A DNA stretch of 32,486 nt from Candidatus Moraniibacteriota bacterium (GTDB lineage Bacteria > Patescibacteriota > Minisyncoccia > Moranbacterales > UBA1568): contig CAINXS010000044.1 in NCBI GenBank assembly GCA_903854995.1, forward strand, positions 1 to 32,486, written 5' to 3'. The position numbers were made by a program, and so were the translations under genes. This document shows positions 1,296 to 5,667 of the stretch, one piece after another. Numbering within the stretch: position 1 is the stretch's first letter; the number at the start of each line of letters is the position of its first letter. The notes under the pieces were generated by a model. The model searched no databases, was not told where the DNA came from, and worked only from the letters and a program-made list of their open reading frames with translations.

Positions 1296-1430
1296 ACATC
1301 TGACTTAACTTATTATGTCTTCATTTTACAACAAGTTCGAATCCCATTCCAGGTAACAAAAAACAAGGCTTGTATAAGCCTCGTTTTACTTGCTCCGGCG
1401 GCAGGATTCGAACCTGCGACCAAGGGATTA

Positions 1431-2060
1431 CATGTTTTCCTCCTGTTTCCAGGACGCATGGACTATATCATCTCCATCGCACGAATGCATTAGGAGTGAG
1501 GCGCTTCGACCCCTTGCAGGGCCTACTCCCTTGCGGGATAGTCTCTGAACCTTCCTTCGCCAGGCTTCGGCATGACTATGCCTTCCACCCGTTAAAGGAT
1601 TGGCTGCTGATCACCATAGTCGGGCTGAACCGACCGTAGGCTTCCAGTCACCGACTTCTTTGAATATTCAAAGTCGTCGGGATCCCGTTTTATCGGGACA
1701 ATTCACCTCATTCATCACTCCCGGATTTCTCCGAAAGGCTGCGTAATTTCTCATGCTCCTCTCTGTGGCAATTCGCGCACATCAGGACGCACTTTTCAAT
1801 CTCTTTCTCGATTCTGGCCCAACTTCTCGTCAGACCATCCTGAGAAATACTGACATCTTTCCTTCCATCGGTATGATGGAATTCGAGCGCGCCCAAACAG
1901 CGATCATAACCGCAGCGGGAACATTTTCCGCCCTTGTATCCGATTGCACGCAACCGCATCGCCTTACGGCGCTTCGCGACGGCACGCTTCAGATACTCTG
2001 GACGGTCAGCATAGGTTCTCTTGTCTGGCATACATGTTTCAGTATACCACGCATGTTTCC
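1431..2060 (-). mobile_element. Group I intron inside tRNA-Asn, carrying an HNH endonuclease ORF
   Basis: 5' exon ends in U, intron ends in G (omega-G). Core-like motifs on the reverse strand: GGTTCAGAGACTATCC and GATGATATAGTCC, with complementary GACTAT/ATAGTC (P7-like R/S elements). Confidence 0.85.
1708..2031 (-). CDS. HNH homing endonuclease encoded in the intron
   Basis: 107 aa with KCSRCGYDRCLGALEFHHTDGRKD...CVLMCANCHREEHEK (CxxC...HH...CxNCHxxxH HNH pattern), entirely inside the intron. Confidence 0.88.
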   Translation of the reverse strand: MPDKRTYADRPEYLKRAVAKRRKAMRLRAIGYKGGKCSRCGYDRCLGALEFHHTDGRKDVSISQDGLTRSWARIEKEIEKCVLMCANCHREEHEKLRSLSEKSGSDE

Positions 2061-2314
2061 ACAGTCCCCTGCTCTACCGCTGAGCTACACCGGAATCTGA
2101 TTTTCAAGCGAACTTGAAACAGAGACAGTATAACCAAACCCTCCCATATTGGCAAGAATCCGCCCTTCCGGACGGATTCTTGCGTTCTTTCCTGATTCCT
2201 TATTCCCTATTCCTGATTCAGCCCCCCCACATTCCGACTTGATAGATAGACTTTATGGGCTTTTAACCCCGTAAAGCCTCGCGGACTCCGCTGCTGGGTA
2301 TGCTTTCGACTCGC

Positions 2315-3787
2315 CTAGTAGTGTCGCAACTTCTTGACGTTGTCGTGCTCGCGGATCTTCTCGAGCGCTTTGGCCTCGATCTGTCGGATGCGCTCGCGGG
2401 TGACGCCGAACTCCTGACCGACCTCCTCGAGCGTATGGGTCACACCGTCCTCGAGACCGAACCGGATCCGAAGGATCTTCTGCTCGCGAGGAGTCAGCTC
2501 GCCCAAGATGTCGGCGATATGCTCTTTCAGGAGCTTACGTGCTGCGGACTGGTTCGGCATGACGGTTTCGGTGTCCTCGATGAAATCGCCCAGCACCGAA
2601 TCATCGTCGCTGTCCCCGATGGACGTCTCGAGGGAGACGGTCTCCTGCGAGATTTTCTGTATATGCCGGACCTTGTCCACCTCCATACCCATTTCCGCGG
2701 CGATCTCCTCCGGAAGCGGCTCACGGCCGAGATCCTGAACCAGTCGTCGGGTCACCTGCAGATATTTGTTGATCGTCTCCACCATGTGAACCGGGATACG
2801 GATGGTGCGTGACTGGTCCGCGAGCGCGCGGGTGATGGCCTGACGGATCCACCAGGTGGCATAGGTCGAGAACTTATACCCCTTGCGATAATCGAATTTC
2901 TCGACGGCGCGAAACAATCCCATATTCCCCTCCTGAATGAGATCGAGAAGGGAGAGATTGTGTGAACGGCCGACGTATTTCTTCGCTATCGAGACCACCA
3001 GCCGAAGGTTCGCCTCGGTCAGCTTCTGCTTGGACGCGATATCGCCCTTTTCGATATTCTTGGCAAGACGCACTTCTTCCTCGGCGTTCAGAAGCGCGAC
3101 ACGACCGATTTCCCGAAGATACATCTGCACGAGATCGGACGTATCGTCTTCACCGTCCACCGGCTGAGGGCGCTCCTGGGATTTCTTCTTCGGCGCCTTT
3201 TCCTTGACGGTCTCGAAGGTCTCGGCGATCTGGTCGGTCTCCACCTTGAGCATCTCGTCGGACGTGACCACGCGGACGCCGGCATCCTCGAGGCTTCCAT
3301 ACAGGCGCTCCAGGGCGTCGAGATCCATCTCCACGTCCGGGAGGATATGGATGATCTCATCTTCCGTCACGAATCCGCGCTGCTTGCCGCGGTTCACGAT
3401 TTCCTCAAACGCGTCGTTCTTCTCTTCCTTCTTGACCTCGGCCTTCGTTTTCTTCAGTTCCGGCTTCGGAGCGGACACTTTCTTTTTTGGCGCTGCCTTC
3501 GCCTGCTTCGACGGAAGTTTCTTCAGTGCCGCTTTCTTTGGCGTAGCCTTCTTCGGAACGGACTTGGCGATGACTTTCTTGATCGGTGCTTTTTTCACGG
3601 TCTTTTTCGGTATCGATGTTACTTTTTTCGCTGGAACCTTCTTCGAAACAACCTTTTTCACCGGCTTTTTCATTGCCGCTTTGCTAGAAGACGTCTTTTT
3701 TACGGGCTTCTTCGGGACTGCCTTTTTCACAGTCTTTTTCGAACCCTTTTTTACCGGCTTTTTTACGGGCTTCTTCTTGACACTCAT
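2315..3787 (-). CDS. rpoD: RNA polymerase primary sigma factor (RpoD/SigA) with long Lys/Ala/Pro-rich N-terminal extension
   Basis: [77 protein letters not shown], and C-terminal [30 protein letters not shown]. Start set at MSVKKKP. Confidence 0.97.
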
Positions 3788-3876
3788 ACGGTTTTGATAG
3801 TATTCAAAAACGAAAGGAAACACGAAGGGTCGCCGAAGCGACAGTAATCATAAAATAGCTTTATTCAGGCGAAAAG

Positions 3877-5667
3877 TCAATTTTCCCGCGAAAGTTCCGC
3901 GAAGCGTTCGAGAAGCTTTTTTTCGAGAGCGCGGTCACCGTCCGCACGAGCGGCCCCGATAGCCTTTACGATACGCTGCAATTCTTCCTTGCGGAATTCC
4001 TCAGAGAGCTGACCAAGCAGTTCGGAAAAGACGACTTCTTTCCGCTTGTCCTGCTCATCCTCTCCCCGCTCCCCGGCAAGAAGTTCCTCGGCATCGAACA
4101 ACAACCTGGCCAGGCGACGTTTCGCCGCTTCGTCTTCCGAAACCGGAAACAGGTCATCCGGTGACGCCGAACGGATCAGCAGAAAGAGCGGGTCACTGGA
4201 AAGAGCCTCTTCAACCCTCCCCGAAATGCGCGAATCCTTGCGGAACACCGGCTCAAGCAGCATAAGCCCGAGAATCCGGTCGCACAAAACGTCTGAACGG
4301 GTCAGAAACACGTCTCCACGCTCCCCGGACGACTTCGCCTTGGGCATTTCGGGAACAGACTCGCGCGGAGTCACCTCGGCGGCCCGTAACGTCACGAGAA
4401 GTGAACGCTCCTCGACCCCGATCGCATCGGCAAGCTCACGCTGCCAAAAATCCCGGTCTATGCGATTCGTCATCGCCGCCAGGAGCGGAGCATACCCCTC
4501 CGCCACGGAACGCTTTCCGTCCGGAATCCTGACGTCGTTCGCCTCGACTGCCCGGTCCAGAAAATATTTCGCTGCCGGAGTGGATCGGATCACCGCCTGT
4601 CGCAGCGCCTCAGAATCTTCGAGCGCCGCATCGGCCGCATCCTTCCCCTCTGGCAATAGTACGACGGACACGGACATTTCCTTTCCCAGAGAAAGCAGGG
4701 CGCTCTTCCATGCGGCGGCCTGTCCGGCTCCGTCCATATCGAAAAACAAACGTATTTCCCTTCCGTATCGCTTGAGAATATCCAGTTGTTCGCCGGTAAG
4801 CGCGGTACCCGATGCCGCGATAGCGTTTTTTATCCCGGCCTGATGGCACGCGATCACATCCATCTGCCCCTCGACCAAAACCGATACGCCCTCCGCCTTG
4901 ATCGCCTGTTTCGCCTGATAGAGACCGTACAGGACACGACCCTTGTGATAGACGGGCGTTTCCGGCGTATTGATATACTTCGCCTGGCTCTCGTCCCCTC
5001 CCGGGGCTACGCGTGCGGAATATCCGATGACACGTCCGACCACGTCGGATATCGGGAACATGATCCGGTCGCGGAAACGGTCATAGTATCCCGTCCGACC
5101 GTCCTTTGCGATGACGAGCCCGGCACGTTCGAGCTCTTCCGGGCGATACCCCCTGGAAACCAGAAAATCATGCAGATGCCGCCACCCCGAAAGCGAATAG
5201 CCCACCCGAAAAGTCTTTATGCTTTCATCCGAGAGCCCGCGCTTTCGCAGGTACGGAAGCGCCGTCTTCGCGCCCTCGCCTTCCCAGAGCTGCTTTTCGA
5301 AAAACTTCGTGGAAAGCTCCAAGATTTCCCTCGTCCTGTCCGGCTCCTCGACGCCGTCTTTCGAAAATATCGACGATTTCCGATATGCCGGAACCTCGAC
5401 TCCGGCGCGTTCCGCCAAGAGCTTGAGCGCTTCTCGGAATTCGATACCCTCGATTTCCTCGACAAACGAGAATATGTCCCCGCCTTTCCCGCATCCGAAG
5501 CAATGAAAAGCCTGCCGTTCCTCGTTCACGGTGAAGGACGGCGTCTTTTCATTGTGGAACGGACAGCAGGCTTTCCAGTATGCGCCTGCCTTCGTCAGCC
5601 GGAGATACGATCCGACCACGTCCACGATATTGAGTTTCGACTTGATTTCCGGAACGATGGAATCCAT
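3877..5667 (-). CDS. dnaG: DNA primase
   Basis: 596 aa; zinc-finger CCPFHNEKTPSFTVNEERQAFHCFGCGKGGD, and TOPRIM region VLVEGQMDVIACHQAGIKNAIAASGTALT...LFFDMDGAGQAA. Confidence 0.97.
   Translation of the reverse strand: MDSIVPEIKSKLNIVDVVGSYLRLTKAGAYWKACCPFHNEKTPSFTVNEERQAFHCFGCGKGGDIFSFVEEIEGIEFREALKLLAERAGVEVPAYRKSSIFSKDGVEEPDRTREILELSTKFFEKQLWEGEGAKTALPYLRKRGLSDESIKTFRVGYSLSGWRHLHDFLVSRGYRPEELERAGLVIAKDGRTGYYDRFRDRIMFPISDVVGRVIGYSARVAPGGDESQAKYINTPETPVYHKGRVLYGLYQAKQAIKAEGVSVLVEGQMDVIACHQAGIKNAIAASGTALTGEQLDILKRYGREIRLFFDMDGAGQAAAWKSALLSLGKEMSVSVVLLPEGKDAADAALEDSEALRQAVIRSTPAAKYFLDRAVEANDVRIPDGKRSVAEGYAPLLAAMTNRIDRDFWQRELADAIGVEERSLLVTLRAAEVTPRESVPEMPKAKSSGERGDVFLTRSDVLCDRILGLMLLEPVFRKDSRISGRVEEALSSDPLFLLIRSASPDDLFPVSEDEAAKRRLARLLFDAEELLAGERGEDEQDKRKEVVFSELLGQLSEEFRKEELQRIVKAIGAARADGDRALEKKLLERFAELSREN

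Follow-up and report, generated by a model that had tools for sequence, protein, structure and literature searches.

A probably mobile group I intron splits the anticodon of what is very probably the only tRNA-Asn gene of a Candidatus Moraniibacteriota genome

How can a cell read asparagine codons when the one tRNA-Asn gene found in its assembly is interrupted in the middle of the anticodon? The question is raised by a stretch of 32,486 nucleotides (nt) from a Candidatus Moraniibacteriota bacterium (contig CAINXS010000044.1, here called the window), in which two halves of tRNA-Asn(GUU) stand 630 nt apart. The answer that we consider highly probable is that a mobile group I intron occupies the only tRNA-Asn(GUU) of the cell, that splicing by its ribozyme restores the anticodon, and that the HNH endonuclease it encodes drives homing; splicing, promoter use, DNA cleavage and homing are what we infer. 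The ribozyme in the pre-tRNA would pair the exon bases CUGU (positions 32-35) with GCAG, a guide in the final part of the HNH gene; attack by guanosine after U35 and ligation of U35 to U36 would then restore the GUU anticodon. A promoter just inside the intron probably drives expression of the HNH protein, which would cut tRNA-Asn genes that lack the intron; the intron would be copied into them as the break is repaired. The observed and computed basis consists of an exact junction, empty and filled alleles in one genus, covariation in the core, no other tRNA-Asn in the assembly, purifying selection on the HNH gene, and an HNH lineage tied to tRNA-Asn in bacteria and phages.

The interrupted gene is laid out as follows.

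2061 to 2094, minus strand: 5' exon of tRNA-Asn(GUU), 34 nt, last bases ...GACTGT (U35); from sequence and from ARAGORN with introns
1431 to 2060, minus strand: group I intron, 630 nt, 5' end GGAAAC, 3' end ACATG (terminal G); from Rfam Intron_gpI (E 6.4e-9), core covariation and the empty site in congeners
1393 to 1430, minus strand: 3' exon of tRNA-Asn, 38 nt, first bases TAATCC (U36), last base the discriminator G73; from sequence and from ARAGORN with introns

Joining the 5' exon (2094-2061, TCCGGTGTAGCTCAGCGGTAGAGCAGGGGACTGT) to the 3' exon (1430-1393, TAATCCCTTGG...CCGCCGGAG) yields a 72-nt tRNA with acceptor, anticodon and T stems, the loop CUGUUAA, U1 and the discriminator G73, which forms a cloverleaf with a GUU anticodon once the exons are joined. 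ARAGORN with introns allowed reports tRNA-Asn(gtt) at c[1392,2094], i(35,630), with an intron of 630 nt; with introns disallowed, it detects no tRNA-Asn at the locus. An earlier note, made from the letters alone, had joined the same halves into tRNA-Asn(GUU) with a 7-nt loop and placed the insertion between anticodon positions 35 and 36, and both the join and the insertion point are borne out by the exact exons. It had also pointed to U as the last base of the 5' exon and G as the last base of the intron, and this holds well beyond the window, as an exon ending in ...CTGT and a terminal intron G are kept in 91 of 91 relatives. The two halves are not joined by accident: dozens of other genomes carry the intron at this very position, and in congeners the site is empty.

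By its sequence the insert is a group I intron, which is predicted to splice itself. The Infernal search that the earlier note had proposed gave a match to Rfam Intron_gpI (RF00028) at 1762-1439 (41.1 bits, E 6.4e-9), yet a scan at gathering scores left the intron undetected in the window. A 51-nt insertion in P4, also present in L058, L078 and L079, probably lowers the score, and the gathering score itself (50 bits) is a curated cut-off and not a biological feature. The elements of the core are listed here, with pairing measured on the aligned cores of 46 relatives.

1739 to 1742, minus strand: P1 3' strand or internal guide sequence GCAG, pairing with exon CUGU (P1 98% canonical)
1704 to 1710, minus strand: P3 5' strand TGAGGTG (P3 99% canonical, double change in 3 pairs)
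1645 to 1701, minus strand: P4 5' strand TTG...CTG, split by the 51-nt insertion (1698-1648), which makes two hairpins; from sequence
1604 to 1609, minus strand: P4 3' strand CAGCAG (P4 100% canonical, double change in 4 pairs)
1538 to 1543, minus strand: P7 5' strand GACTAT (Rfam match, P7 97% canonical)
1497 to 1503, minus strand: P3 3' strand CGCCTCA (same P3 pairing)
1461 to 1466, minus strand: P7 3' strand ATAGTC (Rfam match, P7 97% canonical)
1441 to 1454, minus strand: P9 hairpin TCCTG GAAA CAGGA (85% canonical, double change in 5 pairs)

A conserved group I core (P3-P8, P4-P6 and P7) is thus found across these introns, with P1, P3, P4, P7 and P8 all 97-100% canonical, in agreement with the class proposed in the earlier note, whose P7-like elements are the two strands GACTAT (1543-1538) and ATAGTC (1466-1461). 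Outside the listed strands, P2 is 91% canonical with double changes in 6 pairs, P8 is 97% canonical with double changes in 3, and P5 and P6 are 100% canonical. When the partners were slid by 1-3 columns as a control, the canonical values mostly dropped to 10-60%. The splice site in P1 (CUGU/GCAG) carries the U.G pair. Candidate P7.1/P7.2 hairpins are present at 79% and 68% canonical; such hairpins between P7 and P3 would mark an IA-like subclass, to which the intron may belong. Two other pairings were considered. A guide GUGGU near the 5' end of the intron was ruled out as the P1 strand, since compact introns place the guide at GCAG and the GTGGTATACT block is promoter-like; a P10 between the UUA before the guide and the exon UAA is compatible with the window sequence but can form in just 16 of 90 introns, and is not claimed.

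If the insert is a ribozyme, what does its gene do? Two features concern it.

1708 to 2031, minus strand: HNH endonuclease gene, 107 amino acids (aa), in the P1 loop, its stop TGA (1710-1708) overlapping P3; from the open reading frame (ORF), motif, family match and purifying selection
2041 to 2049, minus strand: TGGTATACT, putative extended -10 promoter of the HNH gene; from its motif

The complete HNH ORF of the earlier note was recovered at 2031-1708. The guide (1742-1739) lies within the last codons of this gene, past most of it, so that the P1 loop is taken up by the gene; the guide is inside the ORF in 77 of 77 introns tested, and in the window the stop codon forms the first bases of P3. 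The protein carries the metal-finger motif CxxC...HH...CANCH (CxxC...HH...CxNCH is invariant in 18 sequences), and all 18 family members match Pfam HNH, the best at 7.5e-6. A sequence search of PDB returned weak matches only, the best of them (6me0, E 1.3e-4) to the tail of a maturase reverse transcriptase. The TGGTATACT block stands 9 nt upstream of the HNH start and may serve as a promoter: 29 of 85 introns have a motif like it, compared with about 5 after shuffling.

Comparison within the genus addresses whether the element moves. In four congeners (G001-G004) tRNA-Asn is uninterrupted and no group I intron was matched, whereas a fifth (G005) carries this intron, 88% identical in DNA; the element is therefore present or absent between close relatives of one genus. 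In G003 (L108) the intron is absent and the alignment (160 bp at 91%) passes straight from one exon to the other, and the end of rpoD is common to the loci of G001, G002, G004 and G005. In the window, rpoD (sigma-70) and dnaG (primase) occupy 2315-5667 on the minus strand, directly upstream of tRNA-Asn.

An immobile element, in which the ribozyme splices, the HNH gene is a relic or has another role such as aiding splicing, and the intron is inherited vertically, is the alternative that survives best, although we think it improbable. Compact introns without an internal HNH gene do exist, and the relative L049 retains a tRNA-Asn intron of 385 nt that is otherwise intact and has lost most of its HNH gene; HNH degeneration thus also happens. 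The window gene, however, is intact, and its comparison with the sister intron gives dN 0.047 and dS 0.68 (dN/dS about 0.07), which indicates purifying selection on the HNH protein. The varying presence of the intron inside the genus speaks against this reading as well.

The earlier note had also suspected that this might be the only tRNA-Asn gene. The genome assembly (1.11 Mb, 90 contigs, 99.86% complete) holds 46 other intact tRNA genes that cover all amino acids except Asn, and no second tRNA-Asn was found in its 90 contigs by ARAGORN or by a pattern for intact tRNA-Asn. The sole match of that pattern, a CTGTTAA at C61:4330, was ruled out as a truncated 3' fragment of tRNA-Lys without a 5' acceptor strand. 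The interrupted gene is thus very probably the only tRNA-Asn of the genome. Across a class sample, the HNH-linked tRNA-Asn intron occurs in 25 of 286 genomes (own genome included), and the intact pattern is found in 0 of the 24 other carriers versus 159 of the 286 genomes overall. That the gene is instead a dead, interrupted tRNA, with Asn codons read by a tRNA missed in the assembly, would suit a draft with one further CTGTTAA match, but the nature of that match, the completeness of the genome, the 24 carriers in the same situation, and the intactness of both exons and the ribozyme core make it very unlikely. Truncated 3' copies of tRNA-Lys near intact tRNA-Lys occur at C61:4330-4360 (L109) and in G001 at C31:57519 (L106) and 58417 (L119); they resemble the attachment-site repeats of an integrated element, and the CTGTTAA there is a coincidence.

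The reading of the gene as tRNA-Thr(UGU), with exons joined as CU + UGUAA, can be set aside as barely credible: the insert length fits both joins equally and ARAGORN favours Thr in many relatives, but its call for the window itself is Asn, a Thr join would end the introns in ...ACA or ...AAG and not in the G that is constant with the U35 join, both U1 and G73 are characteristic of tRNA-Asn, Thr genes for UGU, GGU and CGU are already present in the genome while Asn has no other gene, and the identical tRNA stands intact in congeners with the anticodon GTT.

Several points weigh against a mobile, self-splicing intron in a sole tRNA-Asn. Splicing and cleavage are predictions from sequence, and the Rfam match falls short of the gathering score. 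P5 and P6 comprise two pairs each, and P7 is nearly invariant over the 46 introns and so shows no covariation. The window protein (P0001) taken alone scores 18.0 bits against Pfam HNH, under the cut-off of 21.4, and its AlphaFold model is poor (mean pLDDT 60) and unfit for structure search. The assembly, finally, is a draft in 90 contigs.

How far does this association of nuclease and tRNA extend? Scanning GTDB genomes for the HNH protein gave 476 relatives, of which the best 80 were classified by locus. Among these 80, 79 are at tRNA-Asn (L175 is the exception): 70 parse directly as 35/36 tRNA-Asn introns, L190 does so after correction of its parse, and 8 have a tRNA-Asn-like 5' half ending in CTGT immediately upstream of the HNH gene. 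Where ARAGORN called Thr, His, Asp or Tyr in relatives with the HNH gene, the calls were taken as mis-parses of tRNA-Asn. Carriers are mostly Patescibacteria (Moranbacteria, the nearest named relative of the window genome, Uhrbacteria, Falkowbacteria, Peregrinibacteria, Gracilibacteria and Kazan), and outside them include six metagenome-assembled genomes (MAGs) of Nitrospira/Nitrospirae and several Omnitrophota. Single MAGs labelled Elusimicrobia, Deltaproteobacteria and Acetothermia also appear; such single records are possibly contaminated, whereas the Nitrospirota and Omnitrophota cases recur. In four loci labelled Omnitrophota (L142, L147, L179 and L194) the 5' half ending in CTGT is followed by a GAGCG-rich, hairpin-like stretch and then the HNH gene; simple patterns did not find their 3' tRNA half.

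Related introns were seen in other tRNAs. Compact HNH-less group I introns of 195-228 nt occupy the 35/36 site of tRNA-Tyr(GUA) in L060, L068, L069, L071, L072 and L073, all from the same family, with exon CUGU and guide GCAG identical to those of the tRNA-Asn introns. Apparently at 33/34, with U33 as exon end and G as intron end, group I introns also occur in tRNA-Phe(GAA) (L054, L063 and L104) and in a tRNA with a CAU anticodon that ARAGORN labels Leu CAA (L056, L065 and L104).

In viral contigs the HNH relatives share 44-60% identity and are mostly free-standing in tRNA arrays. Of 40 distinct viral relatives, 29 have a tRNA starting at most 60 nt downstream, and in 21 of these it is an intact tRNA-Asn, although just 39 of the 346 tRNAs in these contigs are Asn (binomial p 2e-14). 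The HNH gene extends 10 nt into tRNA-Asn at most of these 21 loci, the stop TAG of the gene being T8-A9-G10 of the tRNA (for example L216 and L229-L237 among L201-L280, and also L281, the annotated Synechococcus phage S-WAM2, in which the HNH gene overlaps the tRNA-Asn 5' end likewise). Some phages have the relative next to tRNA-Ile (FelixO1). In a further arrangement the tRNA-Asn intron is compact (205-242 nt) and the HNH gene stands outside it, immediately upstream (L084, L094, L097, L200 and viral L242); in L158 the gene is downstream of the compact intron.

The same nuclease accompanies ribozyme cores with and without the P7.1 region. On the HNH tree (112 columns, 130 rows), the core type requires 16 changes and free-standing genes appear at scattered places; the forks are weak and no direction of change is claimed, so that reassortment of nuclease and ribozyme at one site is put forward only as likely. 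On even terms with its negation, we propose that one HNH lineage constitutes a tRNA-Asn-specific mobile element in three states, namely free-standing in phages, where it overlaps an intact tRNA-Asn, free-standing beside a tRNA-Asn whose compact intron lacks HNH, and inside the P1 loop with the guide in the end of the nuclease gene, with nuclease and ribozyme reassorting at the sole tRNA-Asn of many bacteria. As part of this joint reading, and with the same evenly divided confidence, the HNH genes beside compact introns would fit the expectation of collaborative homing.

The classical hosts of bacterial tRNA introns are Leu(UAA), fMet, Ile(CAU) and Arg(CCU), and the site in tRNA-Leu is 34/35. 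Those introns of cyanobacteria and proteobacteria resemble the window intron in self-splicing and in their place in the anticodon loop of tRNA genes, and differ from it in host (here tRNA-Asn), site (here 35/36) and the presence here of an HNH gene in the P1 loop. The endonuclease I-Ssp6803I has a PD-(D/E)XK fold and not HNH. It belongs to the tRNA-fMet intron of cyanobacteria (Bonocora and Shub 2001), whereas the host in the window is tRNA-Asn. Introns with LAGLIDADG endonucleases are known from rRNA genes of CPR bacteria (Tsurumaki et al. 2024, PMC11270868); like the window intron they sit in structural RNA genes of this bacterial group and come with homing endonucleases, but host and nuclease differ. 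The S-WAM2 protein is homologous, and its gene overlaps the tRNA-Asn 5' end, but there the tRNA is intact and has no intron. The idea in the earlier note that the site may be new stands in part: host and site are outside the classical lineages, but the intron is found repeatedly in Patescibacteria and in other phyla, and tRNA genes of Patescibacteria have already been described as carrying group I introns (Lui et al. 2021, PMC8172020), in passages that name no tRNA or site. A preprint (Nakagawa et al. 2025, doi 10.1101/2025.07.03.662931, cited in PMC12641178) whose title promises a novel insertion site in tRNAs of Patescibacteria may already report the 35/36 site. A partial literature search found no publication on a tRNA-Asn 35/36 intron. 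The layout with the guide inside the ORF, the spread beyond Patescibacteria and the link to phages are the parts most likely to be new.

If the proposed mechanism is true, no Asn codon in these bacteria can be read until a ribozyme has excised itself from inside an anticodon. ARAGORN misses such genes or misnames them (none, or Thr UGU), and genomes may consequently seem to be without tRNA-Asn. With its three arrangements at one tRNA, the nuclease family connects phage tRNA arrays with introns of bacterial genomes, and makes it testable how a free-standing homing endonuclease and an intron come to form one mobile element.
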